Positions 15,383 through 40,225 of a DNA stretch of 64,000 bases are shown in pieces. The translations under genes were made by a program, and so were the position numbers. The stretch lies in NCBI RefSeq assembly GCF_002812705.1, contig NZ_CP025030.1, positions 5,580,001-5,644,000 on the forward strand, read 5' to 3'. Origin of the DNA: Achromobacter spanius. Its GTDB lineage: Bacteria; Pseudomonadota; Gammaproteobacteria; Burkholderiales; Burkholderiaceae_B. Each line of letters opens with the position of its first letter. Positions within the stretch are counted from its first letter, which is position 1. The notes beneath the pieces were generated by a model. The model searched no databases. It was not told where the DNA came from and saw only the letters and a program-made list of their open reading frames with translations.

Positions 15383-15921
15383 GGGCCGTTTCCTTCGTCA
15401 ATATCCACTAGCCATTCTTCGATCAGGGCGGCATAGCGCCCGTGCTGGCACACCCGCAACGGTACCCGTCCAAGCAGCCGCCGCTTGGGTGTGCCAAGCC
15501 AGCGAACCGCCTGTTCACGGTCGCCGAACACCAGCTCGGCCAACCACACCACGCGGATCGCGCGATGCAACACCCGCAGGTCGGCCAGGTCCAGCCCCCA
15601 CGCGGGCGGTGACTGCGCGGCCGCGGATTCTGGAATTCCCGGCATTCCCTGTGGCATGCCCGCAGGCATCAACGGAAACCAGCGCGCAAGATCATCCGGG
15701 AACGCCTGGCGCAGCGCCTGCAATAACACCGCCGCGCCTCGCAAGCTGGCGGGCGGCTGCGCGTGGCCCAGCACCCGCGTCAGGCGTTCGTCCAGCGCCA
15801 GCGTGACGGCGCTTGCCGCGTCACGGGGCGCGGGCAACGGACGGCGCGCTGGCCTGGGTAACCGCGTTTTGTTCAAACGCGGCATTGAGGGCAGCGCCAT
15901 CGATGCTGACGGTTCCGGCAT
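15379..15921 (-). CDS. Xre/MbcA/ParS-type antitoxin (DUF2384)
   Basis: The C-terminal part carries the ParS/MbcA toxin-binding signature: AELVFGDREQAVRWLGTPK, then LLGRVPLRVCQHGRY and IEEWLVDIDEG. The N-terminal half is Pro/Arg-rich and only loosely helix-turn-helix-like. The start is uncertain: candidate Met codons at 15921, 15900 and 15885 all lie inside the 3' end of the PPIase gene (which ends at 15821), so the antitoxin is either translationally coupled or begins at a non-standard downstream codon. It overlaps the RES toxin by 4 bp. It should neutralise the toxin and may autorepress. Confidence 0.75.
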   Translation of the reverse strand: MPEPSASMALPSMPRLNKTRLPRPARRPLPAPRDAASAVTLALDERLTRVLGHAQPPASLRGAAVLLQALRQAFPDDLARWFPLMPAGMPQGMPGIPESAAAQSPPAWGLDLADLRVLHRAIRVVWLAELVFGDREQAVRWLGTPKRRLLGRVPLRVCQHGRYAALIEEWLVDIDEGNGP

Positions 15922-16930
15922 TCAGCAAACCCTCCATATAGGCCCGCGCGGCCAGTTCCTGACGTTGGTTACGCAGGGCGGCACGCAGCGCCGGCCTGAC
16001 TTGGTCGAACGGTGTCACGCTGGCCGGCCGCTGCGCCGCCAGCTTCAGGATGTGGAAACCGGCGGCAGACTGCACCGGGGCGGACACGTCGCCCGCTTTC
16101 ATCTGCTGCACCACCGGACGCATTTCCGGCGTCAACTGCGTCAACGGCACATAGCCGATATCGCCGCCCTGCGCGCGCGTGGTCTCGTCGCGTGAATTGG
16201 CCTGCGCCAGCGCCGCGAAGTCGGCCTTGGGCGCCTGCGCCCGCTTGGCCAGGTCCAGCGCCTGCTTACGCGCCGCCGCCACCGCATCGGCATCACCCAA
16301 CGGCGCGGGCAGGAAAATCTGGCTGACGCGGTACTGCGCCGGCTCGGTCAGTTGCGGTTTGGCGCGTTCGTAAGCCGCTTGCAGCTCCGCGTCGCCGGGA
16401 TAATCGTCCGGTGCGCGGCTGACGGATTCCAGATAGCTTTGCACCACGATGCGTTCCTGCGCAGCCTGGACTGCCTGTTTGATCTCGGGCTTGTCCTGCC
16501 AGCCCTGCGCGCGCGCCTGCTCGATCAGCGCCTTCTCGGCCAGACGCCCGCGCAGCCACTGGTCCAGGCCCGCGCGGTTGTCCTGCAATTGCTGACGCGC
16601 CTGCGGCGGCAAGGCCTGCAATTGGCGCATCAGTTCATCGCGTTCGACACGCACGGCGCCCAAGGTGGCGATGGCCGGCACTTGGGGAGCCGGAGCCGCC
16701 GCCGCGACCTTGGTCGCCGTGGCGCCGGGCGGTGAAGTAACGGGCGGTGAAGCAACGGGCGGTGAGGCGACGGGCGCGGCGGACGGCACGGCTTTGGCCA
16801 GTGCCGGAGCGGGCTCGCTGCTTTGGGCATCGTTGCCGCGCATCAACGCCACCGCGCCCGCCAGCACGGCGATAAGCAGCACGGCAGCCGTCACGCGCAG
16901 TTGCTTGTTGGAAGTCAGAGTCTTGGTCAT
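15821..16930 (-). CDS. Parvulin-type peptidyl-prolyl isomerase, membrane-anchored
   Basis: 369 residues from the ATG at 16930 (a GTG at 16939 would add three). An N-terminal hydrophobic anchor (about 14-32, VTAAVLLIAVLAGAVALMRG) is followed by an Ala/Pro linker with a VASPP repeat, a SurA/PrsA-like helical region (about 90-180) and a parvulin domain (about 200-300: YRVSQIFLPAPLGD, ANSRDETTRAQGGDIGYVPL, FHILKLAAQRP). It works in the periplasm, probably helping fold outer-membrane or secreted proteins. It is the last gene of the exoprotein operon, 29 bp after the YbjN gene; as I recall, the P. aeruginosa pdt region also contains a PpiC-type gene. The linker is encoded by a 15-bp tandem repeat (16727-16771). 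Confidence 0.85.
   Translation of the reverse strand: MTKTLTSNKQLRVTAAVLLIAVLAGAVALMRGNDAQSSEPAPALAKAVPSAAPVASPPVASPPVTSPPGATATKVAAAAPAPQVPAIATLGAVRVERDELMRQLQALPPQARQQLQDNRAGLDQWLRGRLAEKALIEQARAQGWQDKPEIKQAVQAAQERIVVQSYLESVSRAPDDYPGDAELQAAYERAKPQLTEPAQYRVSQIFLPAPLGDADAVAAARKQALDLAKRAQAPKADFAALAQANSRDETTRAQGGDIGYVPLTQLTPEMRPVVQQMKAGDVSAPVQSAAGFHILKLAAQRPASVTPFDQVRPALRAALRNQRQELAARAYMEGLLNAGTVSIDGAALNAAFEQNAVTQASAPSVARAP
16727..16771. repeat. 15-bp tandem repeat in PPIase linker
   Basis: Three units of GGGCGGTGAAGTAAC (then variants with AAGCAAC and AGGCGAC) encode the VASPP/VTSPP linker between membrane anchor and folded domain. Unit length is a multiple of three, so copy-number change would keep the frame. 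Confidence 0.7.
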
Positions 16931-16959
16931 GGATCGCACCCTTTGCCAGGCAAGCCGCG

Positions 16960-17490
16960 TTACGCCGCCGCCGTTGTCTCGGCTGCGTCGGCCTCGTCGG
17001 CTTGCTGCTGGGCTTGCTGTTCGGTGTGCTGTTCGGCCTGCGCCTCAGCTTGCGCCGCCTCGCCGTGCTCGGCCGACGCATTCGCGCGCAAGAACAACAG
17101 AAACTCTTGCAGCAAGCGGTCCCACAGTTCGGTCGTGGCGCGCAAGTAAGATTCCGACACGCCGCCGGCCACGATCACGTCCAGTTCCAGCACCAGGAAC
17201 ACACCCTGCACCGACAGGCGGGCAAAGCGCTTTTCCACGTTCCATCGGTCGGCCAGACCGGCCGGCAGGTCCCCTTGCACACGCAACGCGCAGCTCAGCG
17301 TGTAGTCCAGATAATGGCCTTCCTGCTGGGCCGGGTTGCCCATGCGGGCGGCAAAGCCCACGCCCTGGCTGGCGCTCAACAGTTGCACCATGCCGTTCTG
17401 CTCGGACAGCGTCACGCGGTAGCCAACGGATTGCAGCAGGGCTTGCAGGCGTTCGGCGTTCACATCAAGAATCAGGTTCGATTCGGTCAT
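16960..17490 (-). CDS. YbjN-domain protein
   Basis: A soluble protein of 176 residues. ESNLILDVNAERLQALLQSV followed by GYRVTLSE and, later, LDYTLSCALRV resembles the YbjN fold (related to type III secretion chaperones). The C-terminal ~35 residues are a Gln/Ala/Glu-rich tail (QAEQHTEQQAQQQADE). Read from the ATG at 17490; an open frame up to 17736 runs antisense over the neighbour's repeat and is not supported. Lies between the coiled-coil protein and PPIase genes in the exoprotein operon. No signal peptide, so probably cytoplasmic; a chaperone-like role is possible but unproven. Confidence 0.75.
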   Translation of the reverse strand: MTESNLILDVNAERLQALLQSVGYRVTLSEQNGMVQLLSASQGVGFAARMGNPAQQEGHYLDYTLSCALRVQGDLPAGLADRWNVEKRFARLSVQGVFLVLELDVIVAGGVSESYLRATTELWDRLLQEFLLFLRANASAEHGEAAQAEAQAEQHTEQQAQQQADEADAAETTAAA

Positions 17491-17530
17491 TTCATATTTC
17501 CAGGAATAAGGAGGGGGCAATCGGGGAAGG

Positions 17531-18274
17531 CTACGGCCTGGACGTTGCAGCGGCTTGACTCTGGGGCGCTTGACTTTGGGGCGCTTGACTTTGGGGCGCT
17601 TGACTCTGGGGCGCTTGCGCGTCGTAGAGCTTGTCGCCGTAGGCCTGCGCCTGCTCTTCGAACTGCACGCGCGCCTTGCCCGCGAACGGTTGTTTGAGCG
17701 CCAGAATGTCGCCCGTGCTGATGCGTTCATAGGCATTCAGAATGTCTTTGCCGGCCTGGTACATCTCGCGGTTCTTCGCCAGGCACACCTTGACCTCTTC
17801 CTCGCGCTGCGCCAGGTTGCGGGCCAGCGCCACGCGCTCCGTTTCCTTGGTGCGCGCCAGGGTCAACAGTTCGTCGTAGGCGCCCTTGAACTTGCCCAGT
17901 TGCGCATGGCTGGCGGCCACTTGGGCCTGGGCGCTTTCCGTCAGCGCGTCTTGCTGCGCCGCCAGCTTTTCGGCCTGCCCACGGCTCTTGGCCAACTGCG
18001 CGCGCAGCGACTCCAGCTCCTTCTGCGCGGCGTCAAGCTGCGCTTGGGTGGCCGCCTTGGCCGCGTTGATCTGCGCCTGCTCGCTTTGCAGCTGCTGCAA
18101 CTGCTGCGTGGTGCTGCGCAACTGGGCGCGCAGGCGCTCTTCCATGGTTTCGGCCTGGGCGCCGCCAGACAGGCTGAGGCCTGCCGCGCACAGCGCCACG
18201 GCGGCGGCCAGGCGCCGGCCGCGCCCGGCCGTGGGGAAATGGCGGGATGCATCCCATACGATGTGCATGTCCAT
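17531..18274 (-). CDS. Periplasmic coiled-coil protein with C-terminal APQSQ repeats
   Basis: A protein of 247 residues from the ATG at 18274, five bases after the porin stop (TAAGGCCATG), suggesting coupling; M at 18268 is an alternative. A signal peptide ends near SGGAQA. Then follows a long helical region rich in Gln, Ala and Glu (LRSTTQQLQQLQSEQAQINA), predicted coiled coil to about residue 165. The C-terminus has four APQSQ units. No enzyme motif. Related small periplasmic helical proteins accompany TonB/ExbBD-linked clusters; a structural link between envelope layers is possible but inferred. Confidence 0.7.
   Translation of the reverse strand: MDMHIVWDASRHFPTAGRGRRLAAAVALCAAGLSLSGGAQAETMEERLRAQLRSTTQQLQQLQSEQAQINAAKAATQAQLDAAQKELESLRAQLAKSRGQAEKLAAQQDALTESAQAQVAASHAQLGKFKGAYDELLTLARTKETERVALARNLAQREEEVKVCLAKNREMYQAGKDILNAYERISTGDILALKQPFAGKARVQFEEQAQAYGDKLYDAQAPQSQAPQSQAPQSQAPQSQAAATSRP
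17555..17614. repeat. 15-bp tandem repeat encoding APQSQ
   Basis: Four units of TTGACTCTGGGGCGC (two have TTGACTTTGGGGCGC) encode the tail of the coiled-coil protein. Unit length is 15 bp, so expansion or loss keeps the frame. The near-identity of units suggests recent slippage. Confidence 0.8.
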
Positions 18275-18278
18275 GGCC

Positions 18279-19976
18279 TTAGAACCTGGCATTGATTTCG
18301 AACTGCATGGTGTCGATGGCCAGGGGTTCACCATAGATCTCCTTGGTGCTCATCCAGCGGAACACGCCATACACGTTCTTCTCGAAGGCATAGCCCGCGC
18401 CGATGTAGTAGCCGCGCGCGTTGGTGCCGCCCTGGTGGAACGACGAATCGTTGAAGGCATCGGGCAGCGCATCCGGCTGGATGTACTTGTAGCCAACGAA
18501 GGCCAGCCAGTCGCCCTTCTCTTTCAGGTCATACGAACGGCCCAACGTGGCTTGCAGCATCCAGGCGTTGGGGCCGCTTTCGACGTTGCCGTTGTCGTCG
18601 AAGTTGTTGACGATATAGCCCTGCGAGCGGCTCGCCATCTTGCCCTTGCTGTAGGCCAGGTTGTGGATGAAGTTGCCGTTCACGCGCAGGCCCAGCCCAT
18701 CGAACACGCGGGTATCCCAACGCAGGTTCAAGTCCAGCAAGTCAAACTTCGAAGCCAGGCCCACGTATTGCGGCTGCGGCGTGTTGGCCGGGTCGAGCGG
18801 GTTGGGGGCAATGTTACGCAAGAGGAACAGCGTGTTGCCCTTTTGCATGAAGGCGGGCCGCGACCAGTCGGTGTCGCAGTTTTCGTCGCCCGCCCACGGC
18901 GAGCACGCGCTTGAGCGCTTGCCGGCGATGTTGTCGAAGTGGTAGTACGCCAGCGCGCCGCGCAGGCTGTTCTGGTTATTGACCTTCCAGTCGGCGCCCA
19001 CCTGCGCGCCCAGCAGCCACTTGTTTTCGCTTGCGCCTTCCGTCATGGAAGACGCATTCCAGCCGTTGTTCGCGTACTCGGTCGCAAACGCGCCCAGCGT
19101 GCCGAACAAGGTCACATCGCGGCCTTGCAGAGGCTGCTTGAAAATGGCCGCGATACCGTCGAAATTCAGATCGTTGGAGAACAGCGTATCGGTGGATTCG
19201 AACGGGTTGGCGATGCGGCCGCCGGTTACCGTGGCCCACGTGGCGGGACGATAGGTCAGGTAGGCCTGGTCAAGCCAGATTTCCTTCTTGCCCATGCCGC
19301 CGCCCAGCGTCTGCGAGGTGGATACCGGGCTGTCGTCGCTGCCGGTGGCCAGCCGAATGCCCGCCGTCCAGGCTTCGGAAATATCGGCGCGCACCCCAAG
19401 ACGGGCACGGATGCGCAACTGGTTGCGGCGGTCTTCGCGCGTGTTCAGCATGGGCGGATAGCCGCCGTTGGTGTTCTGGTTGACGTCGTACGGCCCGTTG
19501 GCGTTGAGCTTGGCGAAATTGACAATCTCGTTGCTGTTGCCGCCGTTGTAGAAGCGCGATTCGTCGCGCACGCGAACGTCGCCTTCCACGGTGATGCGCG
19601 ACACCCAATCCGGGAAGGTATTGGGCTGCGCCCAGTTCTCTTCCTTGGCCTGCACCATGACTTCAGCCTTGACCTCGTCGCGAATCTGGTCACGCACGGT
19701 CTGCGGAATGTAGGGCACGCGCACGTCGCCCGCTTGCGCCACGGCGGCGCCGCGGTCGGCGGGCGGAGCGTTGCGCGCGGCCTGGGCTTCGGCCTCGGCC
19801 TGCGCCACCAGCGCGTTGGCCTGTTCGGGCTTGAGCACGCCTTGCTGCACCAGCAGGCGGATCAGGTTGATGGTGGCGTTCTCGGACGGCGCGGGCGCGC
19901 TGTGCGCCGGCAGCGAGGCGGCGCCCGCCACGGCCAGCGCCAGCGATGCCGCCAACCGGTTCAATGGGAACTTCAT
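18279..19976 (-). CDS. Putative outer-membrane porin
   Basis: A protein of 565 residues. A signal peptide (LAASLALAVAGAASLPAHSA, about residues 8-27) is followed by a helical segment (LIRLLVQQGVLKPEQANALV, about 38-57) typical of the putative porin family, then a long beta-barrel with alternating polar/aromatic strands (RITVEGDVRVRDESRFYNGG, LRIRARLGVRADISEAWTAG) ending in the outer-membrane signature IDTMQFEINARF (C-terminal Phe). It probably forms a diffusion channel. Start ATG at 19976 has GGAGTGA upstream. It sits between tonB and the coiled-coil protein in the operon. As no TonB-dependent receptor lies in this locus, this barrel and TpsB are the only local outer-membrane candidates for contact with TonB. 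Confidence 0.82.
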   Translation of the reverse strand: MKFPLNRLAASLALAVAGAASLPAHSAPAPSENATINLIRLLVQQGVLKPEQANALVAQAEAEAQAARNAPPADRGAAVAQAGDVRVPYIPQTVRDQIRDEVKAEVMVQAKEENWAQPNTFPDWVSRITVEGDVRVRDESRFYNGGNSNEIVNFAKLNANGPYDVNQNTNGGYPPMLNTREDRRNQLRIRARLGVRADISEAWTAGIRLATGSDDSPVSTSQTLGGGMGKKEIWLDQAYLTYRPATWATVTGGRIANPFESTDTLFSNDLNFDGIAAIFKQPLQGRDVTLFGTLGAFATEYANNGWNASSMTEGASENKWLLGAQVGADWKVNNQNSLRGALAYYHFDNIAGKRSSACSPWAGDENCDTDWSRPAFMQKGNTLFLLRNIAPNPLDPANTPQPQYVGLASKFDLLDLNLRWDTRVFDGLGLRVNGNFIHNLAYSKGKMASRSQGYIVNNFDDNGNVESGPNAWMLQATLGRSYDLKEKGDWLAFVGYKYIQPDALPDAFNDSSFHQGGTNARGYYIGAGYAFEKNVYGVFRWMSTKEIYGEPLAIDTMQFEINARF

Positions 19977-20012
19977 GCTCTTGTCACTCCAGGATCAATT
20001 CAATGTGAGACA

Positions 20013-20726
20013 TCAAGACGGGCGGCGGCCAGTCAGCGAGGCACGGATGGGCATGCTGGCCGAGGCCGGCGGGCGTTCGTCCAGGCCCGGCACGGCGCGC
20101 AGCGCGGCGATCACGCGGGCGTCGACGTCGGCGTCGCCGCTGCCACGGGTCAATTCAACGCGGGTGACCTGGCCCGACGCCGTGAGCCAGATGTTGGCTT
20201 GCAGGCGGAAAGTCAGATTGCGAGTGCGTTCGTCTTCGCGCAGGATCTTCTGCAGCGCATAGGCCAGGTATTGGCTATAGGTGGCGTTGCCCGCGCGGCC
20301 CCCTCCCCCGCCCGACATGCCCTTGCCCTGCCCCGCGCCGATGTTGAAGGCGTCGCCGCCGGCTTGGGCGTCGCCGTCGATCTGCATCGGGTTGGCCAGG
20401 TCGTCGGCCGGGCGCGGCGGCGCCTCGTCCTGCGGCTTGGGCGGTTCGGGCGTGGGCTGCGGTTCGGGCTCGGGCGTGGCCACGGGCTCTTCCTTGGGCT
20501 GCTCGGGTTCCGGCGGCTTCTCGGGCTCGGGTGGCGGCGGCGGAGGCGGCGGCAGCGGGATGATGGCCGTGACCTTGGGCGCATCGCGCCGGACGCCGGA
20601 CATATCGTTGGCCCAGCGCCAAAGCGCGTAGGCCGCCACGATCGCCGCCACCACCACGGCCGCCAGCTTCAGCCAGCGGCGCGCCGGATGCGGATCGCGC
20701 GAAGAATCGGATGCATGTTGCGGCAT
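20013..20726 (-). CDS. tonB: TonB-family energy transducer
   Basis: A protein of 237 residues: short cytoplasmic tail, one membrane helix (about 18-37, WLKLAAVVVAAIVAAYALWR), a long Pro/Glu linker (PPPPPPPPEPEKPPEPEQPK) and a C-terminal TonB-like domain (YSQYLAYALQKILREDE, then FRLQANIWLTASGQVTRVEL). It lies directly downstream of exbD (17 bp), so the ExbB-ExbD-TonB motor is encoded as a unit. It would transmit proton-motive force to the outer membrane. Its partner is unclear because no TonB-dependent receptor is encoded here. Confidence 0.88.
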   Translation of the reverse strand: MPQHASDSSRDPHPARRWLKLAAVVVAAIVAAYALWRWANDMSGVRRDAPKVTAIIPLPPPPPPPPEPEKPPEPEQPKEEPVATPEPEPQPTPEPPKPQDEAPPRPADDLANPMQIDGDAQAGGDAFNIGAGQGKGMSGGGGGRAGNATYSQYLAYALQKILREDERTRNLTFRLQANIWLTASGQVTRVELTRGSGDADVDARVIAALRAVPGLDERPPASASMPIRASLTGRRPS

Positions 20727-20743
20727 GACGTCGGTTCCGGCCT

Positions 20744-21163
20744 CTATTGCGGCTTGCCGGTAACCAGGCCGACCTGTGCAAGTTCCAGGCGGCGCAACAG
20801 ATCCAGCACTTCCACGACCTTCTGGTACTGCACGGCGGCGTCGCCGCGCACAATGACCGGGAAGTCGGGGTTCAGTGCCTTCTCCGTGCGCAGCCGGTCT
20901 TCCAGCTCGGGCAAGGTAACCGGGTAAGCGTCCAGGAAAACCTGGCCGGCGTCGTTGACGGAGATCGCCTTGGTTTTCGGCTGCGACAAGGCCACGGTGG
21001 AACTGGCCTTGGGCAGGTTGACCTTGATGCCGGCGATCTGTGCGGTGGCCGTCAGAATGAACATGACCAGCACGACCATCAGCACGTCGACCAGCGGCGT
21101 GATGTTGATGCCGTCGACGGGCGCGTCGTCATCATCGTCCTGGGAGGTGGATACGGAAGCCAT
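20744..21163 (-). CDS. exbD: ExbD/TolR-family biopolymer transport protein
   Basis: A protein of 139 residues with a single N-terminal membrane helix and the essential intramembrane aspartate in INITPLVDVLMVVLVMFI (D26, equivalent to E. coli ExbD D25). The periplasmic part ends YQKVVEVLDLLRRLELAQVG as in the family. An acidic stretch DDDDD precedes the helix. Lies 9 bp after exbB and 17 bp before tonB. It forms the stator/proton pathway with ExbB. Confidence 0.92.
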   Translation of the reverse strand: MASVSTSQDDDDDAPVDGINITPLVDVLMVVLVMFILTATAQIAGIKVNLPKASSTVALSQPKTKAISVNDAGQVFLDAYPVTLPELEDRLRTEKALNPDFPVIVRGDAAVQYQKVVEVLDLLRRLELAQVGLVTGKPQ

Positions 21164-21172
21164 GGCTGCTCC

Positions 21173-23089: not shown

Positions 23090-23128
23090 GAGTAAGACTC
23101 CGGGGGTGAATGGGGTAAGCGCGTGCGC

Positions 23129-24751: not shown

Positions 24752-25005
24752 AGCGATGCACTCAGTTCCTTGTGTGAAAACCGGTCTGGTACCGGCCGCT
24801 ACCGTGCAGCGCGCATCGCGACAATCCCGTTACGGTTTTCGCCCACAACCCCGCGTCTACAACTTCTGCTTGTTACTAGACGTACTGGCAGGCCCAAGAC
24901 CGCGCGTTGTAAGAAAAACTTCACGAAAAAAAACCGGGCGTCGACCGGGCCGAACGGTCTCGCGGGGATTCTGGCGACGCCACATGACGGCGCCAGCGGC
25001 GCAAC

Positions 25006-25036
25006 AAAAAAAAAGCGGCCAGTAGCAACTGGCCGC
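25006..25036 (-). terminator. Rho-independent terminator after tpsA
   Basis: On the minus strand a perfect 9-bp stem (GCGGCCAGT/ACTGGCCGC, loop TGCT) is followed by nine consecutive T. It lies about 170 bp past the tpsA stop and 255 bp before tpsB, so most tpsA transcripts should end here. Confidence 0.88.
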
Positions 25037-25042
25037 CCATAC

Positions 25043-25062
25043 GCAGGATGGGTAAAGCGCAT
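25043..25062 (+). repeat. Partial dispersed-element end next to copy D
   Basis: GCAGGATGGGTAAAGCGC repeats the left end of the 66-bp element in tandem, directly before full copy D. Confidence 0.6.
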
Positions 25063-25064
25063 GC

Positions 25065-25130
25065 GTAGGATGGGTGAAGCGCGCAAACCCCACGGCAAGA
25101 ACCCCGGCGCCGAACGCGCGCAACCCATCA
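25065..25130 (+). repeat. Dispersed ~66-bp palindromic element, copy D
   Basis: It starts GTAGGATGGGTGAAGCGCG and ends CGCGCAACCCATCA, 66 bp, between the tpsA stop and the terminator. The centre is unrelated to the other copies. Confidence 0.72.
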
Positions 25131-25208
25131 ACCGCCGCCTGCACGTCTCCGCCCCGGTTCAAAACCATCGCGTTCCTCACGCCCCGGTTCCGCCCCCGCC
25201 CCCCCTCT

Positions 25209-34200: not shown

Positions 34201-37200
34201 TCCAAGACGGCGCCCGGACGCACGATGACATACAGGTCGGATGAGGTCGCCGTCGCGCGGTCATGGTCGATCTCGCCGCCCAGCACGATGACGCCGCCCG
34301 CGTCCGCCACGCCGAAGAGGCGGCCCTGCGCATCCACGCCCGTTTCCGAGCGGCCGGCCACGTTCAGCACGGCCTGCTCGCCGATCCAGATAGAGCGGTC
34401 GTGGACCTCGCCTTGCACGACTTCCAGGGACTCGGCCACATCCACGTCACCCACGCGCAGTTGGCGGATATCGATCTTGCCGCCCGCCGCCGTCAAGGCG
34501 CCCAGCACGGTAATCTGCCCCGCCCCGCGCATCTGGATCGATTGTCCCGGGTCCACGTTCAGTTGCGCGCCTTGCCCGACGATCAGCGCGGCGTCCACAT
34601 TCGCGCCGGTCGCGGCAAGGTTGCGGCCGCTTTGCAGCGACAGGCTGGCGCCCTTGCGCTGCGTTACCGTTGCCGCGACCACGTCATGCTGATAGACGGG
34701 CGGCAACCACGTTTGCAGCGCCGACGCGGGGTCCGCGCCCGTCGGCAGGCCGGCCGCGCCGTCGACCGGGCGGTACACCGGCATCAGCACATCGATACGC
34801 GCGCCGTCGGCCACCGTCACGCCGTTGGCGCCTGTGAGCTCGTAGCGCGAATAGCCTTGCTGAAAGAACGGCGCGTCCAGCGTCAGCACGCGCTCGTCGG
34901 CATCGCCGGACGCGCGCCCCAGCACGATCTTGTCTCCCGTCACGGCCAGGGTGCCGCCGCCTTCCACGCCATAGCCGCGCAGCTCGGCGCCCAGGCTCAG
35001 TCGGCCCTCTTGCGTGCCGCCGGCCACCAGCTCCACGGTGGTATTGCCGCCCTTGCCGCCCGTCACGCGCCCGTTTTTGCGCAGCACCGCGCCCGAACTC
35101 ACGTCGATGACGCTGCCGGCGTCCAGCAGTATGTCGCCGCTGCTACGCAGCGCGACCGTGCCGCCGTTCAAGTAAGGCATGGCGCCGATCTGCTCGGGCG
35201 ACATGGCCAGGTTGCTGAATTGCCCCCTGGCGTCCAGCCGCGCGCTCAGCGCCAGCGTGGGCTGGGCGCCGTCCGCACTGGCTCCGGTGGTGGTGTCGGC
35301 CATGCCCGTGGGCGAGGCCTGGTTCAGCACATTGCCCAGGCGGATGCTGCCCGCGCGTGCAGTCAGCGTGGCATCCACGGATACCTTGTTCGCGAACAAG
35401 GTGATGTCGCCCCCCGCCGCCACGCCCAGATCGGATTGCACGGCGATGTCGTTGGCGGCGATCTTGATGGCGCCCAGGTTGGACGCATTCAAGCGCGTGG
35501 TATCCAGATGCAGGATGCCCGCCCGGTCTTCAGGCAGCGCGGTGTTCAGGTCCAGCCCATCCGCAATGGCGTCCACCCGCTCAGACAGCAGCACCTGCTG
35601 AATGGTGTTTTCGGACTTCCCCAGCGCGTACGACATCGAGCCGGTGGCCTTGTTGTAGTAAGGCGTATAGGTGCCCACCACCAACTGCGCACCGCGCGCC
35701 GCCGCGCGTTGCGATTGCTGGTAGCCGTCCAGCGCCGGCTGCGGCGCCGCGTTCTGGCGCTCGCCCTGATAGGTCTGCCCGATCAGGTCGCCTTCCAGCA
35801 CCGCGCTTTTCGTGCCGATAAGCAGCCTGCCCGCGTCACGCCCCACCGTGTAGCCGGTTTCAAAGCGTTCCTTCGGGGCAAGCAGGGGGTTGTAGAAATA
35901 GCGGGTCTGGCCCCAGCGTTCGGATTTCGCCTCGTAGCCCCTGTACAAGCCCGTGTACGCCAGATCGCCCGGCGCGCGCGACACCTCGTAGAGCCGTCCG
36001 TCCACGCCGCGCAGCCAGCTCTGTCTGACCATGCCGTCCTGCACATCCAGCGTGCCGCCCGATACATTGATCTGTGACCCGGCGCGCGTGACCACTTCAC
36101 CGCCCGTGAACTCGACGTTGCCGCCCTGCGCCATCCACTCGTTGACGGCGTGGCCCTGGGTGCCCAGATAGCCGCTGACTTCCAGCAGGCCACCTGCCGT
36201 GTACCAGCGGTCGGTGGCGTAGCCGTTGGTGCCTGCCGGCACCAGGACCAGTTCGCGCGCATCCACCCAGATGTCGCTGTTATTCAGCTTGCCGCTGTCG
36301 CGGTTGACCGCCGCGTCGCGCTGCTCATTGCCCTGTACGTTGATCTTGACGCTGTTGTTCTCCATGGCCACGGGCACGCCCACCGCGCCCGCCACGTCCA
36401 GCACCGCGCCGTCACGCAGCAGGCTGCGTTGGGCTGCCTGCACGGCGATCTGCCCGCCGGTCGCCAAGGTGATGGAGCCCGACGCAAAATCCACCGTGCC
36501 CGAACTGTTGATCTCCACGCGCGACAACTCGCGCCGGTCGCTACCGCCCGGCGCCCATGTCGACTCCGACGCGGCGATGACCGGCGCCCGCAGGCCGTCG
36601 CGCTGACTGTCCAGCGCCAGCGCGCCGCTGCGGTCCAGCAGAATGGCCGTCGTGCTCGCTTCCGCCAGGGTGATCTTGCCGCTCCCGCCCGTGGCGTTCA
36701 GATGCACGGTGCCGCGCGTATCGACCGAGGTGCTGGACAGCGCCACGCCGCCCTGCACCACGTCGCCGCCGGTCAACGTCACATCCCCCAGCGACGCCTG
36801 GATCAAGCCCGTATTCACCACGCGGCCGGGCGTGCCGGCAACGCTGACTTCATTGCCCTTCGTGGTAGACGTGAGATTGCCCGACGTGCCCATCCCGCGC
36901 TTGATCACGAAATTGTCGCCGGCGGCCAGCAGCGCCTGGCCCGAGGGCGTGTCGATAGTGCCCGCGTTGGCGGTTTCCTTGCCCAGCAACAGCACATAGC
37001 CGCCGCTGGTGGTGGACGTGCCGGGCGCGGCGGTCCGGATCATTGCGCCCGCTTGCACGTCGACCTTGCCCAGCGCGTCCTGGAACGTCGGCTGCGCGCC
37101 GTTGTCGGCGTACAGGCCCTTGTCGCGGAATTGCGCGTCGGTGATTGTGGCGGCGGCGGCCACCAGGTTGCGCGCATTCACCTGACTGGTGCCGGTGAAG

Positions 37201-37916
37201 ATGACCCCGTTCTGGTTCACCACCATCACGGTGCCGTCGGCCTTGATCGCGCCCTGGATCTGGCTGGGCTTGACCGATGCGCCCACCACCCGGTTCAGCA
37301 CCGCGTCGTCCGCGCCCTGCTTGAACTGCACCGTGGTGTTGCGCCCGACGTTGAAGCTGTCCCAGTTCAGGATCGCCCGCGACTGCGTCTGTTCAATGGT
37401 GACGATCTGGCGGCCGTTCTCGACGCTGGGCTTGGCAGCCTTGGCGCCTTCCCATTTGGCCTTCTCGCCCGTCGCGGCCCACAGCCCGCCTTCAACCAGC
37501 CCGTCCGGCACGTTGCCACCGTTGGCGGCTGCCGCGGCCGCGCGCGCCGCCGCCTGGGCGGCCTGTTGCGCCGCGACGGCGGCAGCCGTTCGGTTCAGGT
37601 TTTCCAGCGACCGCTGCAACTGCTGCCGCGACTGCGCCTGTTGGCGCGCGCTGCTGCCGATGCCGGCCAAGCTGCCGTCGGGCATGCGGCCCGTACGCTG
37701 CGCCGTCGATTGCACCGCGTTCTTGTCGGAGAACCAGCCCGGGCTGAACGCCCGTTGCTGCGCCTGCGCCGCCCCGCTGGCGCTGCCTGCGATCAACAGC
37801 GCCGTCACGGCCTGGGACAATGGCGTCGGACGCCAATTCGGGCGCACTCGTGCCGGCACGGTCCCCATGTTTCGCTTGCCACCCAACCCCGACATCCGTG
37901 CCTGCATGATCGCCAT
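25209..37916 (-). CDS. Giant TpsA exoprotein, filamentous haemagglutinin family (PdtA-like)
   Basis: About 4,235 residues in one frame. Start uncertain: TTG 37928, ATG 37916 and ATG 37907 are all in frame; the last has AAGGG well placed. An extended signal region ends near GAAQA (about residue 56), then a Gln/Ala-rich spacer and the TPS secretion domain (about 165-330 from the TTG: SRAILNWDSFNVGRNTTVQF, IQGAIKADGTVMVVNQNGVI). The bulk is a beta-helical series of short glycine-rich units (GDITLFANKVSVDA). Two copies of a ~37-residue unit near 28.5-28.7 kb each hold a CX6C pair. The C-terminal ~450 residues carry the region often annotated DUF3739 (QRPGASIAVLAGVGAKGPDY) and end TAEERRKLML. It is secreted by TpsB and either shed or held at the surface. 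Adhesion or nutrient capture are possible roles. Confidence 0.92.
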   Translation of the reverse strand: MAIMQARMSGLGGKRNMGTVPARVRPNWRPTPLSQAVTALLIAGSASGAAQAQQRAFSPGWFSDKNAVQSTAQRTGRMPDGSLAGIGSSARQQAQSRQQLQRSLENLNRTAAAVAAQQAAQAAARAAAAAANGGNVPDGLVEGGLWAATGEKAKWEGAKAAKPSVENGRQIVTIEQTQSRAILNWDSFNVGRNTTVQFKQGADDAVLNRVVGASVKPSQIQGAIKADGTVMVVNQNGVIFTGTSQVNARNLVAAAATITDAQFRDKGLYADNGAQPTFQDALGKVDVQAGAMIRTAAPGTSTTSGGYVLLLGKETANAGTIDTPSGQALLAAGDNFVIKRGMGTSGNLTSTTKGNEVSVAGTPGRVVNTGLIQASLGDVTLTGGDVVQGGVALSSTSVDTRGTVHLNATGGSGKITLAEASTTAILLDRSGALALDSQRDGLRAPVIAASESTWAPGGSDRRELSRVEINSSGTVDFASGSITLATGGQIAVQAAQRSLLRDGAVLDVAGAVGVPVAMENNSVKINVQGNEQRDAAVNRDSGKLNNSDIWVDARELVLVPAGTNGYATDRWYTAGGLLEVSGYLGTQGHAVNEWMAQGGNVEFTGGEVVTRAGSQINVSGGTLDVQDGMVRQSWLRGVDGRLYEVSRAPGDLAYTGLYRGYEAKSERWGQTRYFYNPLLAPKERFETGYTVGRDAGRLLIGTKSAVLEGDLIGQTYQGERQNAAPQPALDGYQQSQRAAARGAQLVVGTYTPYYNKATGSMSYALGKSENTIQQVLLSERVDAIADGLDLNTALPEDRAGILHLDTTRLNASNLGAIKIAANDIAVQSDLGVAAGGDITLFANKVSVDATLTARAGSIRLGNVLNQASPTGMADTTTGASADGAQPTLALSARLDARGQFSNLAMSPEQIGAMPYLNGGTVALRSSGDILLDAGSVIDVSSGAVLRKNGRVTGGKGGNTTVELVAGGTQEGRLSLGAELRGYGVEGGGTLAVTGDKIVLGRASGDADERVLTLDAPFFQQGYSRYELTGANGVTVADGARIDVLMPVYRPVDGAAGLPTGADPASALQTWLPPVYQHDVVAATVTQRKGASLSLQSGRNLAATGANVDAALIVGQGAQLNVDPGQSIQMRGAGQITVLGALTAAGGKIDIRQLRVGDVDVAESLEVVQGEVHDRSIWIGEQAVLNVAGRSETGVDAQGRLFGVADAGGVIVLGGEIDHDRATATSSDLYVIVRPGAVLDASGASTTVDVNGVGPVRLDRDGGRISLSSYNGLHLDGTFIARAGGASAAGGALDIALETPLYRTWGEGLAGEAVQVPREMVLAAGAGKPLAAGLTPGEADDGLRYGQARLDPSRLLAGGGFDHLGLLSNGLMSFDGDVNVAVGQSLRLYAGAFSLAPQGDALAGMQTHAPAQVNLAASYVRLSGPGEYAASNGMIRPRVLFGDAQDVGEGTFTVRAGRLLEVGNSLSFGTQGTINRSVGGVLSVARSGFDRVTLDSAGDLRFLAHNDNEPRTRLWTRGDLDLIAAQIYPGTGVEAEVLAGFTRRPDGTQVFDPDRSLRIARHEGTTGALPAMPYSAFGSLRLAAATVEQGGVLRAPLGAITLGDLSERMDTQGLSLLPGSVTSVSGAGLVMPYGGTTDGVSYKFNGADVSLVGVGGASGLDGGAMLRTGITLGFRDVDAQPGSVLDLSGGGELTGAGFVSGRGGSTDARYAPLVRMNPDGGFTLPGLANNPVYAIVPGAQPVVAPVGGEAGASTPGVGQQITLGAGVPGLPAGTYTLMPSTYALLPGAFRVEINGGASAGAALAPMQMRNQSWAASGTLSTAGTNVVNSLASAVILTPGKVLRTLSQYNEMSYASFVAADAVTRGVPRAMLPADARTLRLAIHPGSTDGQALSVEGLANFTAAKGGFGGAVALNGGSSTVEILAAGQAPTAGFEGSSVQADALNALGASRLVVGALPVVWYGSGGRFYTFQASANQVVLRAGAQLTGPEVLISSRTIELEAGAGISTLGAGAPSVDSSNGYAFQPRTASLLAVSNGRLDVLAPDALGAGAIRIGTCAAQPCQGVTRLYSEGTIAAATNGVFDLGEQVRYGTRNLALAVGAVNVGTTEALTQAAARGVLPNGLTLNQDILGRLLRGDTSMGAPALETLTLTARDALNFYGTVALDTRDPLTGKYSLATLALGTPAIYGYGDAGDEASIRTQNLVWNGATQAPGAVAAGGAGTGQGTLRIDAERIEFGYGQGAQPNGLEDNARLALGFSSVNLNASDRITANHRGSLSVYESQGAFDSATGRYAYVGGNLNLNAPLLTGGAGSVNRMTAGGDVRVTGAPGLPALQAAAVQDLGAEISLAGANVRVDGRIVLPSGKLTLEGRDSVLLTSASQLDVSGRAIAFNDVLRYSWGGDVILASSQGSIRQEGGSLIDLSAQQNNAGNLRADALSASAGVVDLQGRILGTSSGAYDAGGTAVPYRAGSIDISAQRLGAPGALNADFDTLNQRLNDGGVTGARSFQIKQGSLTLGDTLRANDINLSIDGGSLTVAGRVDASGERVGRIRLAARDGLTLASNAVLDAHGTVLRVDSYGKIIDAPNRAVVQLNSGRGVLTLASGARMDLRHGTAATRGTGAGQHDGVSRGTLDLFAPRIDAAGNAANNGSGVVGSAATYGDIAIEARGPVTIAGAKAISLIATQRYDDARDGVAADRTSGREYQIIDQAYLDTLHGDSATFIGHALANGYLLNTKLAGLNNATYRDVFHLRPGVEIVSKTGDGDLVVQGDLDLSRYRYASLNPHSAMTSVYGSGEAGALTLRAKGNLDVYGSINDGFAPPSATPDDENGWILTPGAQAFGGDVVLPRGGVELAEGTEFPGGKTLNYALPLQATTLAAGTRLPVEAALNQELSLAAGMVLSGDVRDASGQLLYAAGSILDQAVNLPVGTRLGAGTMLTAGTALQAFTWPANVALPNLYTTQGYERNVLLMAGTITLKQGALIPSQTKLVFPEGVDYVELRPGTAADQRRNWAVAQMLPAGSQSWSMQLVAGADLDAADPLRVVRGPDAGKLTLADTHYNASLVKGASLVWGPDAGPSGFEPGTPVPEDLLWLCDAVEGLCMPPPRFTWGPDNWFGYPAGTPVAEADIGLCELSADQCIENKASTSVVTHTQNFSVLRTGTGDLDLAAGGDFSLMSAYGVYTAGTQAANVDAAFQLPRGRYETTVLGDAHSTTYEPFVSAGAGYQAWYPEAGGNLSLYTGGALRGDVWGKTTGGNFEARVIDPSVGIGNWLWRQGTGSANGGDTPTAWWINFGSYTRAPSAFKDNTPLLVGFTGFGALGGGNVSLRVDGDAGNIESRGSINNPRSQGLIVAVGSTGRIAGDGGMTLTGGGDIDIRVGGGLNPTQSARGLVSSTVGPTPYYGEPALDLQGALINLRGHAQLAGGAVGGLDLQYGNEAREQDVKESRGYDPYVSTMASATGGLVLIPGDAVIRLDTRGDLVVSGASDPGRVVLPNSTPYRMPDGTMRTGGGYSWFSMWTENTAIELSSAGGNLTPSRQTSHSAQGLAVQAGRNTSPSDGRYLYPSILRATAYDGSIYAGVSAGYLNNEATGLPYSLTLAPGARGQLEMLAGDSIYAGGYAINRSGADPASVANVLAPAFAGYLSEANTNVALSNQGANGLAGDRYTHFPLFYFNALTASTAGSNDVTRFYARNGDIVGLRTGEALSITQGPNLGQTWYEASGPVWMLAGRDIVASGTNTGTSTDVPSTNGMNFGASGTSVTSTGNLFLHRDALDVSRVSAGRDILYSSFQVAGPGALEVSAGRHVLMADKASITSLGAVMPGDQRPGASIAVLAGVGAKGPDYAAFLARYLDPAMAADPSRPLVDQGLAFKTYEAELLLWMTQRYGFAGSTDDARAAFAALPAEQQRIFARQVYFAELRSGGREYNDLASPRNGSYLRGRQAIAALFPETAPGAYEGDITLYGAAGIRSTFGGDIQLLTPGGQQVFGVEGVAPPATAGIITQGEGNIQLYAQGSILLGQSRVMTTFGGGITAWSAQGDINAGRGSKTTVLYTPPKRVYDAVGNVTLSPNAPSTGAGIATLAPLPEVPAGDVDLYAPLGTIDAGEAGIRVSGNVNIAALQVVNAANIQAQGDSAGVPVTAGVNTGALSSASAAASSAVNAAQDSAQRAQAEARQNQPSVINVQILGYGEEPVAGATPVVPSAGAASVAPKYDAASAVQVLGAGALDAGETASLTAEERRKLML

Positions 37917-37986
37917 CCCTTGTTCCAATCGCGCGTGTTCGTCACCTAGAACAAGACAGACGGATTGAAAAATGCAGACCAGAACC

Positions 37987-38004
37987 CTGTCATAAATAAT
38001 TCAT
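37987..38004 (+). promoter_or_regulatory. PHO-box-like sequence upstream of tpsA (reverse orientation)
   Basis: CTGTCAT-AAAT-AATTCAT has the 7-4-7 direct-repeat form of a PhoB site and matches the E. coli consensus at 15 of 18 positions by my count. It lies about 70 bp upstream of the tpsA start but points away from tpsA, which weakens the case. Its TGTCATAA is repeated inverted (TTATGACA) at 38028-38035, across the FecR stop codon. Confidence 0.4.
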
Positions 38005-38026
38005 CGAGCGACGGGTCGCCACGTGC

Positions 38027-38998
38027 TTATGACAACAGGACGACGCCGGCGGGAAGGTGTGTCACACGCGCGCCATACGCATCGCGGATCAGGCGTTCGG
38101 CATCGGCCACCTGCGCCAATGAAAAGCGGGCTTGCACCAAACGCTTGCCCAGTTGCTCATTCATCAGCACCAGGCGGCCGCGCCGGTAACGGTTCAATTC
38201 TTCGACCACCTGCGCCAGCGGCTGCTGGTTGAACACCAGCCAGCCCTGACGCCACGCCGTCACCACGGCGGGATCGACCTGCACGGGCGGCATCACGCGC
38301 GTATCGTCATAGCGCAGCTCACGGTTGGCCACCACGTCGAACACGCCTTGCGCGTGCACCAGACGCAGCGACCCGGACAGGCAGCAAAGCCGCGCCTGCC
38401 CGCCGATGTAACGCAGGTTGAAGGTGGCGTCCCGCGCGGTGATGCGACCCTTGCCGGCCACCACCACCGCAGCCGTCGCGCCGCTGCGGATTTCCGCTTC
38501 GCCATCGGCCAATTCAATGACCGGGCCACTGGCGTCTTGATCAACGTTGATGCGCGTCAGCGTGTTCATGTCCACGTCCAGCGCATTGCCCAGCGACACC
38601 CGGCGTTGCTCGCCCGCCGCCGTGCGGTAGTCCGCCCCCAAGGTATCCACGCCGGGCCACAGGCCCAACGGCGGCTTGAATGCCAGATAGGCCGCCGACG
38701 CAGCCAGCGCGCCACCCAGAAATGCACGACGGCCCGTGAAAGCCGCTTTGCGCGCACGGCCGCGCGCACCCTGCGCAGCCACGTCCTGGATGGCCGGCCC
38801 CAGGCCTTCCCACAACTGCTTCTGATCAGCGAAGGCCGCTTGGTGCCGGGAGTCGGCGCGTAGCCAATCGCGAAACGCTTGTGCGTCGTGCTCGGTGGCG
38901 CGGCCAGAGGTCAGCGCCAACAGCCAGTCCCGCGCCTCGCGGGTGGCGGCGTCATCTTTGTTCTGGTTTCTTCCGGGCATGCTCATCGTCAGCGCCAT
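38027..38998 (-). CDS. FecR-family anti-sigma regulator (VreR-like)
   Basis: A protein of 323 residues from the ATG at 38998 (overlapping the sigma gene by 10 bp; ATG 38986 is possible). Domain order: cytoplasmic DUF4880-type helical region (ATREARDWLLALTSGRATEH), a membrane helix (about 95-112, with RRAFLGGALAASAAYLAF), the periplasmic FecR domain (QRRVSLGNALDVDMNTLTRI, ATFNLRYIGG) and a C-terminal STN-like domain (LVFNQQPLAQVVEELNRYRR). It holds the ECF sigma inactive until a periplasmic signal arrives. The helix is preceded by a twin-arginine motif; E. coli FecR has been reported to need Tat for insertion. The signal should come from the STN protein encoded at the start of the operon. Confidence 0.9.
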   Translation of the reverse strand: MALTMSMPGRNQNKDDAATREARDWLLALTSGRATEHDAQAFRDWLRADSRHQAAFADQKQLWEGLGPAIQDVAAQGARGRARKAAFTGRRAFLGGALAASAAYLAFKPPLGLWPGVDTLGADYRTAAGEQRRVSLGNALDVDMNTLTRINVDQDASGPVIELADGEAEIRSGATAAVVVAGKGRITARDATFNLRYIGGQARLCCLSGSLRLVHAQGVFDVVANRELRYDDTRVMPPVQVDPAVVTAWRQGWLVFNQQPLAQVVEELNRYRRGRLVLMNEQLGKRLVQARFSLAQVADAERLIRDAYGARVTHLPAGVVLLS

Positions 38999-39564
38999 GG
39001 TTCTTCGTCCCGGCACGCGGCACGGGAGGCCGGGGCCGACCCACCCTTTCCACTCCCCGCCACGAGCAGTTCGCGCGCGCAATGTTCCAGCGCGCGCTTG
39101 AGTTCTTTGGATACGATGCGTTCCGACACGCCGTAGCGTCGTGCGATCTCGGCATGCGGCAGATCGTGTACGCGCGCGGCCAGCACCATCTGCTGCGTGC
39201 GCTCGGGCAATTGGCGCAACGCGCGCTGGAAGGCGTCGATCTGGTCGCGGCCTTGCGCAATGCGCGCCGGGTCCGCGGCCTCGTCCGCCAGGTGGATCAG
39301 TTCGCTGATCTCAACCCCGGTCAGCAGCCGGGAGTCGCGCCGCCGCTGATCTTCCGCGATGTTCAACGCCACCCGAAACAGATAGGCCGCGGGCTGCTGA
39401 ATCGACGAACTGGCTGGCAGGTCATTGACCTTCAAGAACGCTTCCTGCATCGCGTCATGCGCAAGGTCATCCGAACCCAAGCGACGCTTGAGCTGACTGC
39501 GAAAGTCGTTGTAGCGCTCCAGAAACAAGGCTCGCAACGAGTTTTCCGGCTTGTTATCCCGCAC
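38989..39564 (-). CDS. FecI-like ECF sigma factor (VreI-like)
   Basis: A protein of 191 residues from a GTG at 39564. Region 2: RSQLKRRLGSDDLAHDAMQE then AAYLFRVALNIAEDQRRR. Region 4: LPERTQQMVLAARVHDLPHA then EIARRYGVSERIVSKELKRA. It belongs to the iron-starvation/cell-surface-signalling sigma group by sequence style. Its start overlaps the STN gene end by 11 bp and its end overlaps the fecR-like gene by 10 bp, so the three are translated together. It probably directs transcription of tpsA and perhaps of the tpsB-exbB operon. Confidence 0.9.
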   Translation of the reverse strand: MRDNKPENSLRALFLERYNDFRSQLKRRLGSDDLAHDAMQEAFLKVNDLPASSSIQQPAAYLFRVALNIAEDQRRRDSRLLTGVEISELIHLADEAADPARIAQGRDQIDAFQRALRQLPERTQQMVLAARVHDLPHAEIARRYGVSERIVSKELKRALEHCARELLVAGSGKGGSAPASRAACRDEEPWR

Positions 39565-40225
39565 TGCCGCCCCCCTGCTCTTTGTCGCATTCCGCCGCGC
39601 TGCGCGGCTGCAACAACACCGTCAGCGGTTGCGGCGTGCCCGCCGGCATGGGGCCGATCACCACGCCGCGCAACGCCGCTTCCAGGCGACCATCCAGACT
39701 GGCCTGGCCGGTGCTTGCCACCCACCCGACGCGGCTGACGCGCCAGGCCTTGTCGAACCACAATTGCACCAGCGCGCGATAACTGCCCGGCTGCGTGCCG
39801 GCCGCCTTGCACAAGGCGCGTTTCAACGCGGTTTGCACCACGGCGGCGTAGGGCGTGTCGCGCAAGCGCCTGCCATAGGCGGACGCTGCGTCATCGTCCT
39901 TGGAAACCAACGTGAACGACTGCGCGCTGGCATAGCGGATGGACAAGGGGGAACCTGCCAGCAGCTTGCGCAACGCCTCGCTGGGTGTGTAGACGCCCAC
40001 CACCGCCGGGGCCTGCCTGCCGGCCGTCAACGTGCTGTCCACCAACACCGTCAGGCCGCTGGCCAGGCTGTATTCAACGAGCGCCTGAGCAAGCGGCTGC
40101 GCCGCGATCTCGAATCGAATGGATGGGGCGGACGGCGCCGCCTGGCCTGCCTGCGCCAGCGCCAACAGGCCACAGGCCAGACAGGCGCGCAGCACTCCGC
40201 CGCGCCCCTTGAAGGCGCCGCTCAT
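39554..40225 (-). CDS. Periplasmic STN-domain plus TonB-C-like signalling protein (VreA-like)
   Basis: A protein of 223 residues. A signal peptide (about 1-28, ACLACGLLALAQAGQA) is followed by an STN domain (about 32-108: IRFEIAAQPLAQALVEYSLA, GVYTPSEALRKLLAG, IRYASAQSFTLVS) and then a TonB-C-like domain (about 120-205: YAAVVQTALKRALCKAAG, LVQLWFDKAWRVSRVGWVAS). There is no receptor barrel. In FecA-type receptors the STN domain passes the signal to FecR; here it is a free protein, exactly the layout of P. aeruginosa VreA. First gene of the operon with the sigma and anti-sigma genes. How it senses the outside without a barrel is unknown; contact with TpsB, porin or the ExbB fusion is possible. 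Confidence 0.88.
   Translation of the reverse strand: MSGAFKGRGGVLRACLACGLLALAQAGQAAPSAPSIRFEIAAQPLAQALVEYSLASGLTVLVDSTLTAGRQAPAVVGVYTPSEALRKLLAGSPLSIRYASAQSFTLVSKDDDAASAYGRRLRDTPYAAVVQTALKRALCKAAGTQPGSYRALVQLWFDKAWRVSRVGWVASTGQASLDGRLEAALRGVVIGPMPAGTPQPLTVLLQPRSAAECDKEQGGGSAG

Follow-up and report, generated by a model that had tools for sequence, protein, structure and literature searches.

The stretch described here comprises 64,000 nucleotides of Achromobacter spanius (contig NZ_CP025030.1, positions 5,580,001 to 5,644,000), called the window below, and the system in question is a locus of twelve leftward genes encoding a giant exoprotein of two-partner secretion (TPS), its transporter, a Ton-type motor, a porin and a surface-signalling trio. 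All twelve genes named in the first-pass annotation were found, in the order vreA, sigma, fecR, tpsA, tpsB, exbB fusion, exbD, tonB, porin, coiled coil, ybjN and parvulin, and both order and domains were confirmed by Pfam and NCBIfam matches and by the open reading frames (ORFs). The features are as follows:

39554 to 40225, reverse strand: VreA-like periplasmic protein with signal peptide, STN domain (Pfam STN, E 7.8e-9) and TonB-like C-terminal domain
38989 to 39564, reverse strand: extracytoplasmic function (ECF) sigma factor, VreI-like (Sigma70_r2 and r4_2)
38027 to 39082, reverse strand: FecR-family anti-sigma factor, VreR-like (DUF4880 and FecR; NCBIfam FecR E 1e-21, below the cut-off)
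25209 to 37928, reverse strand: tpsA, pdtA-like (TPS domain and DUF3739; 4,239 codons from a TTG start, 4,235 amino acids from the ATG at 37916)
25527 to 25859, reverse strand: DUF3739 near the C-terminus of TpsA (PF12545, E 1e-38; residues 4024-4134 in TTG numbering)
23129 to 24751, reverse strand: tpsB, pdtB-like Omp85 transporter (POTRA_2 and ShlB; short N-terminal spacer before POTRA1, by eye)
21173 to 23089, reverse strand: DUF2341-LamG-ExbB fusion, exbB2-like (PF10102, PF13385, PF01618)
20744 to 21163, reverse strand: ExbD/TolR, exbD2-like, proton-path Asp kept (PF02472)
20013 to 20726, reverse strand: TonB, tonB4-like (TonB_2; NCBIfam tonB_Cterm just under the cut-off)
18279 to 19976, reverse strand: Porin_5 outer-membrane protein, PA0696-like (PF16930, E 4e-202)
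17531 to 18334, reverse strand: coiled-coil secreted protein, PA0697-like by synteny (no Pfam family, named from its appearance)
16960 to 17490, reverse strand: YbjN-family protein, PA0698-like (PF10722)
15821 to 16939, reverse strand: PpiC-type parvulin, PA0699-like (PF00639)

TpsA with its TPS domain and TpsB with POTRA domains and a ShlB-type barrel form a two-partner system of type Vb, and the ExbB/TolQ, ExbD/TolR and TonB/TolA components, with the proton-path residues present, make up a motor of the Ton/Tol type; in all 21 aligned copies ExbD retains its proton-path Asp and ExbB the two Thr of that path. The length of about 4,235 amino acids given earlier for TpsA holds from the ATG at 37916. 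The earlier description of VreA as a free protein with STN and TonB-like domains also stands: the STN domain is recognised by Pfam, and for the C-terminal domain, which has no Pfam match, a profile comparison gives an alignment to the cassette TonB (97.6%, E 3e-12), by which the two domains are judged homologous. A cognate TonB-dependent receptor was looked for with Pfam among the twelve genes and, in agreement with the first reading, none was found. The ORF of the YbjN protein covers 16960-17736, the family match begins at its residue 94 and the ATG at 17490 is the likelier start.

The locus is the Achromobacter orthologue of Pseudomonas aeruginosa vreAIR together with pdtA-pdtB-exbB2-exbD2-tonB4-PA0696-PA0699, so that its original description as a complete Vre/Pdt-type locus is borne out, PA0674-76 and PA0690-99 of strain PAO1 being in matching gene order. 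According to the available passages of two papers (PMC2729926, PMC7035377), these genes constitute most of the PAO1 VreI regulon, listed as vreA-vreI-vreR, pdtA, phdA/PA0691, pdtB, exbB2, exbD2, tonB4 and PA0696-PA0699, with PA0696 a putative porin, PA0698 a YbjN protein and PA0699 a PpiC protein; the VreI table of 2009 contains all of them except tonB4 (PMC2729926), which appears in the list of 2020 (PMC7035377). The likeness lies in gene set and gene order. The window has the vreA-vreI-vreR order, a barrel-less VreA with STN and TonB-like domains as in the Vre/Pdt (PUMA3) system, a linked TpsA/TpsB pair, ExbB2D2-TonB4 and the PA0696-0699 homologues in order, PA0697 being matched by position and product size only. 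The DUF2341-LamG-ExbB layout is also present in a P. aeruginosa ExbB protein (P0101), which is 69% identical to the window fusion; a protein named from A. spanius matches the window fusion at 99% identity. The window differs from PAO1 in that no hxc type II genes lie between trio and tpsA, the trio directly abutting tpsA, and in that phdA/PA0691 is missing between tpsA and tpsB. In the portions available, Llamas et al. linked PUMA3 homologues with TPS, ExbBD and PA0696 homologues in Burkholderia vietnamiensis, Janthinobacterium, Rhodopseudomonas palustris and pseudomonads as early as 2009 (PMC2729926), and therefore the betaproteobacterial locus as such is not new. Publications from 2009 to 2020 describe the role of VreA and exbB2-exbD2-tonB4 as unknown or uncharacterised.

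Gene order was followed in named loci, which are the best 80 of 419 confirmed GTDB candidates from a search with the ExbB fusion. The run of eight genes from tpsB through the exbB fusion, exbD, tonB, the porin, the coiled coil and ybjN to parvulin keeps its order in 76 of the 80, which is far beyond chance; three exceptions are cut by a contig end (L019, L033, L065) and one has no parvulin match (L052). The other side of the locus was approached by a VreA search in 41 genomes, 24 of them other Achromobacter, with neighbourhoods taken for the 14 strongest matches. The order vreA-ECF-fecR-tpsA is kept in all 14, tpsB follows tpsA in 10 (L145 is cut by a contig end), and a second trio adjoins tpsA in three (L141, L142, L144), one of which also shows the start of a second tpsA. 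No VreA match as strong as the best 14 was found in 10 of the 24 other Achromobacter genomes. As a side observation, L020 and L036 (Pollutimonas, Alcaligenes) carry an extra VreA-like match within the cassette or Vre trios flanking it on both sides; L020, with the extra match inside, is one of the 76 ordered loci.

A survey of 397 Pseudomonadota genomes separated the constant from the variable parts of the locus. DUF3739 was found in 19 of them, and the ExbB-fusion profile, at a cut-off of E 1e-60 fixed before the search, returned the identical 19. Porin_5 was found in 27 genomes: the same 19, each with a best match of E 1e-142 or better, and 8 others with weak matches (E 7e-4 to 3e-37) to parts of the barrel, starting near profile position 154. 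A TPS domain of the general kind is present in 159 genomes, the 19 among them, and hence it is the DUF3739 class, not TPS in general, that accompanies the fused ExbB and a full-length Porin_5. The exbB-exbD-tonB-porin block is contiguous in 18 of the 19; the exception is G257, whose porin gene sits next to tpsA on a different contig. In 16 genomes tpsA and exbB share a contig and are no more than about 20 kb apart (G166, G257 and G268 are split over draft contigs), and tpsB was observed in 17 of the 19 fetched neighbourhoods. The coiled-coil gene was noticed in 13 of 19, parvulin in 6 and YbjN in 6, counts from which weak profile matches may escape, and tpsA may precede, follow or diverge from the cassette. 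The core of the system is TpsA, TpsB, fused ExbB, ExbD, TonB and Porin_5, often with the coiled-coil protein. Co-occurrence, named for all twelve families as a check in the first-pass annotation, was observed for DUF3739 TpsA, fused ExbB and Porin_5 and not for the full set; the view of twelve genes as one unit is not supported, as the trio, YbjN and parvulin are accessory by their presence across genomes.

The accessory nature of the trio was evidenced by a VreA profile run on 44 DUF3739-positive genomes with a cut-off of 1e-10, then 1e-20 for genomes added later; a very divergent VreA could escape, most of all at the latter value. Full-length VreA is present in 24 genomes and absent from 20, every full-length match being 1.7e-28 or better, and shorter matches are STN domains of receptors or the cassette TonB itself. 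Motor and porin occur without full-length VreA in 7 of the 19 survey genomes, and 13 further DUF3739 genomes lack VreA (the motor genes were searched in the 19). Trio and cassette as one obligate unit are therefore rejected, VreA-negative genomes carrying the core. Where VreA exists, its number follows that of TpsA: copy numbers of VreA and TpsA correlate with a Pearson coefficient of 0.96 over the 44 genomes and 0.98 within the 24 VreA-positive ones, with 9/9 copies in G569 and 3/3 in G361, VreA being one more in eight genomes and one fewer in G185. G212 and G361 have several trio-TpsA units each, yet a single ExbB-fusion match. In an alphaproteobacterial family, that of G399, TpsA and VreA are expanded to 5-9 copies per genome (G569, G600, G588, G616).

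What VreA may recognise is suggested by the very end of TpsA, where two candidate elements were read:

25377 to 25409, reverse strand: tail motif 1 of TpsA (SVINVQILGYG), proposed docking strand, present in some form in 68 of 68 tails
25212 to 25310, reverse strand: tail module 2 of TpsA (YDAASAVQVLGAG...LTAEERRKL), proposed VreA-linked docking module

The 68 tails (30 + 32 + 6) come from 44 genomes, several multi-copy genomes being covered in part (G569 3/9, G600 3/7, G588 3/5, G616 3/5, G609 3/4, G496 5/6). After DUF3739 every tail has a low-complexity or Ala-rich linker and then a strand-like motif (68/68), mostly [IVF]xV[QEDR][VIF][LIV]G[FY]G and looser in G185, G248, G307 and G257; the pattern was widened after the first tails had been inspected, so its universality is descriptive. 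Among the 16 genomes of the window's class that lack VreA, 15 have a TpsA that continues for 1-6 residues beyond motif 1, and in G414 it continues for 15. Module 2 (YDPxSxVQVLGAGxL...LTxEER) was modelled from 28 named-locus tails and scored on the others, the window and G166 lying within lineages used to train the model. At E <1e-3 it was found in 40 of 47 tails of VreA-positive genomes vs 0 of 21 in VreA-negative ones and, counted by genome, in 18 of 24 vs 0 of 20 (Fisher 1.6e-7, ignoring relatedness). The same contrast is visible within one alphaproteobacterial family (9/11 vs 0/3, p 0.027) and within one genus, where the module is absent from two VreA-negative genomes and present in one VreA-positive genome.

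On this basis we lean towards the view that the DUF3739-TpsA proteins form a subclass of TPS whose export or surface display would be coupled to a private proton-driven motor, with docking of the tail and a sensing role of VreA. Coupling is proposed because, in the genomes sampled, DUF3739 TpsA, DUF2341-LamG-ExbB and Porin_5 are found only together and next to ExbD, TonB and TpsB. TpsA would pass through TpsB with its tail last, and the TonB C-terminal domain would grip the tail strand, or a segment at the porin N-terminus, by strand addition; the motor could then finish export, or release or hold the giant protein, with the coiled-coil protein, the parvulin and the porin as putative helpers. 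In trio lineages the second domain of VreA, the relative of the TonB domain, may dock on module 2, the STN domain would report the presence of the tail to the FecR-type anti-sigma factor, and the sigma factor would set transcription of tpsA and the cassette. VreA perhaps protects the anti-sigma factor until the tail is engaged, by analogy with what is reported for FoxA and FoxR without signal (PMC11637429). Llamas et al. already raised the speculation that the C-terminal domain of VreA might contact some partner in the outer membrane (PMC2729926). Among the roles offered earlier for the energy module, sensing as the sole role is excluded by the seven motor genomes without VreA, and release or processing of TpsA is favoured. 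The boldest wording, in which DUF3739 TPS would be a proton-driven type V secretion, the TpsA tail the TonB dock and VreA a sensor that informs the anti-sigma factor of the export state of the TpsA it belongs with, is put forward tentatively, as possible rather than probable.

Several points weigh against motor-coupled export and tail sensing. A TPS review states that type V translocation has neither an energy source nor a gradient to power it. Because some genomes are related, they do not count as independent samples, and six VreA-positive genomes have no clear module 2 (G134, G286, G375, G185, G561, G606); in the first three, of one genus, it is degenerate (E 0.016-0.03), in G561 and G606 VreA lies 26-34 kb from tpsA, and one tail of G616 (L181) scores E 0.004. 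Five tails were read with the VreA state already known, of which G587, G549 and G633 fitted and G561 and G606 did not. The model of the TpsA tail has low confidence (mean predicted local distance difference test score, pLDDT, 55.9), and strand docking consequently rests on sequence only. In PAO1, as far as the passages available go, VreA is dispensable for VreI activity at low phosphate and for virulence in zebrafish embryos. The DUF3739 subclass, which in the 397 sampled genomes always came with a motor and porin of its own, offers a natural test of energy-free type V secretion in Pseudomonas and Achromobacter relatives which are easy to handle, and the TpsA tail is a concrete, peptide-sized candidate partner for VreA and for the exbB2-exbD2-tonB4 system.

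Porin-mediated uptake is the main rival, rather doubtful in our estimation. TpsA would capture a nutrient, as HxuA does haemopexin, and the Ton motor would open Porin_5, perhaps for a phosphorus compound. Porin_5 accompanies the motor in 19 of 19 genomes and directly adjoins tonB in 18, and the porin carries an N-terminal extension with a conserved segment:

19659 to 19730, reverse strand: GDVRVPYIPQTVRDQIRDEVKAEV, conserved segment in the N-terminal extension of the porin, candidate rival TonB-contact site

Its core, Vx(Y/F)(V/I)P, is present in all of a set of 28 porins and in 77 of 78 named porins, and the weak Porin_5 matches of the 8 other genomes start beyond the extension. A precedent is given by Haemophilus influenzae HxuCBA, in the sources as available a TPS pair working with a Ton-dependent outer-membrane protein; the difference is that its outer-membrane protein, HxuC, is a TonB-dependent transporter and that HxuA binds haemopexin, while the window has a porin and a private motor. 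PhoB control reported in the accessible PAO1 passages, together with the pho-box-like elements in the window, also fits uptake. On the other hand, the porin model, of modest confidence (mean pLDDT 60.7), is an ordinary porin fold with 16 predicted strands in which no plug domain was seen, no inner-membrane transporter is found among the twelve genes, and the conserved tail of TpsA would be left unexplained. Among solved folds, this modest model comes closest to Veillonella OmpM1, which bears the title of an outer membrane attachment porin. G286 and G375 have, downstream of their porin genes, a FecR/ECF pair with an ORF of 1,064-1,070 amino acids matching the STN part of VreA only, which is probably a real TonB-dependent receptor adjoining the cassette.

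It is less likely still that the locus is a mobile gene cluster inherited whole, in which motor and TpsA have no mechanical coupling. Co-travelling neighbours do yield perfect presence patterns, and TpsA and ExbB are no more than about 20 kb apart in 16 of the 19; the order is, however, reshuffled among lineages, accessory genes vary and additional TpsA-Vre units sit at other places in the genome, yet all 19 genomes have the complete core. That the motor serves solely Vre cell-surface signalling, in the way that Ton serves classical transducers, is highly improbable and largely refuted, for despite the STN and TonB-like domains of VreA and the nearness of trio and cassette in many loci, a motor found with its porin in 7 of 19 genomes without full-length VreA cannot exist for Vre sensing alone.

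Other known systems share features with the locus. Salmonella SiiAB with the giant adhesin SiiE also links proton-driven motor proteins to a giant surface protein, as described in the parts of the literature available, and differs in its type I secretion; no ABC exporter of that kind was found in the locus, where the exporter is TpsB. To our knowledge, SiiAB/SiiE has no TonB-like protein or porin. With FecA-FecR-FecI surface signalling the locus shares the STN domain, the FecR-type anti-sigma factor and the ECF sigma factor, and it differs in having no receptor barrel, the STN domain being joined to a TonB-like domain. DUF2341 is described in one paper as an appendage that motor A subunits carry and whose function is unknown (PMC12505986). 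Among the matches listed in the open-access literature no paper on the DUF3739 family was found, nor, in titles, abstract starts and passages, any proposal of a motor-coupled TPS class or of TpsA as the partner of VreA.

Regulation was approached through conserved upstream blocks:

40320 to 40337, reverse strand: pho-box-like repeat GTGTCAC-GAAT-GCGTCAT upstream of vreA, with TAGCAT 10 bases downstream
37958 to 38004, reverse strand: tpsA promoter-like block made of GGTC-N14-CGTCT (37958-37980) and, upstream of it, a TGACAG element, both in all 15 Achromobacter sequences
24878 to 24901, reverse strand: tpsB promoter-like block GGTC-N15-CGTCT, seen in aligned Achromobacter

Upstream of vreA, TGTCACGAWTRCGTCAYTC and CTAGCATGGCG occur in 15 of 15 Achromobacter sequences, with the consensus TGTCACGA(A/T)T(G/A)CGTCA(T/C)TC followed by CTAGCATGGCG. 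The TGACAG element of tpsA reads CTGTCAT-AAAT-AATTCAT on the opposite strand (37987-38004). Upstream of tpsB, CGTCTAGTAACAAGCAGAAG is kept in 11 of 11 aligned Achromobacter and GGTC stands 15 bases ahead in 8 of them. The GGTC-N14/15-CGTCT pattern is found 3 times in the window vs 0.8 expected, one match lying inside tpsA on the opposite strand, and 5 of 100 shuffles reach 3; it counts as suggestive only. The one-regulon inference of the first-pass annotation gains some support from these conserved blocks at vreA and tpsA (15/15, with small changes) and at tpsB. A pho box by consensus alone was rejected as proof, the window containing 7 matches vs 12.7 expected; genome-wide, with up to 2 mismatches, 56 matches were counted vs 32 for the reversed pattern. 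In the passages available on PAO1, PhoB binds at vreA, pdtA and phdA, and VreI promoters lie at pdtA and phdA (PMC4971064). The three blocks of the window stand at sites corresponding to the PAO1 promoters, with the pho-box-like element at vreA; this parallel is suggestive, since the consensus counts are without significance, and the vreA promoter may be PhoB-type as in PAO1. An ECF-promoter search upstream of tpsB in 79 named loci gave AAC-N17-CGTC as its best pattern (43 of 79), which was dropped, as it falls within a coding sequence of Pseudomonas that carries a DUF772 transposase domain. The twelve genes are probably not a single transcript, because a hairpin with a T run stands 3' of tpsA (25038-25013; weak, 1 site vs 1.2 in shuffles of that stretch) and conserved blocks precede vreA, tpsA and tpsB.

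Some minor observations concern the surroundings of tpsB and the end of the locus. In 60 of the 80 named loci the gap from tpsA to tpsB, or the sequence immediately upstream of tpsB, holds an ORF with a QLxYNLLFRW signature (for example L028:7734-8333, L029:7551-8276, L023:338-967), and three such ORFs, when tested, joined a weak Phd/YefM antitoxin match, below the cut-off, to a DUF772 transposase domain. This ORF is probably PA0691 of PAO1; if so, the combination of Phd/YefM and DUF772 would explain why PA0691 was first, in 2009, named transposase-like and afterwards phdA. In the 457 bp gap between tpsA and tpsB of the window no such ORF was noted. The TpsB spacer from signal peptide to POTRA1, judged by eye, is about 13 residues in the window, 5-8 in G059 and G286, 20-40 in others and long in G416 and G399; in FhaC, according to the source passages, plug helix H1 and a linker of about 30 residues precede POTRA1, an arrangement predicted in 'most TpsB'. 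Downstream of the parvulin gene two overlapping ORFs occupy 14885-15921 on the reverse strand: that at 15379-15921 has an Xre/MbcA/ParS antitoxin C-terminal domain, its partner at 14885-15382 has no Pfam match, and together they are perhaps a toxin-antitoxin pair.

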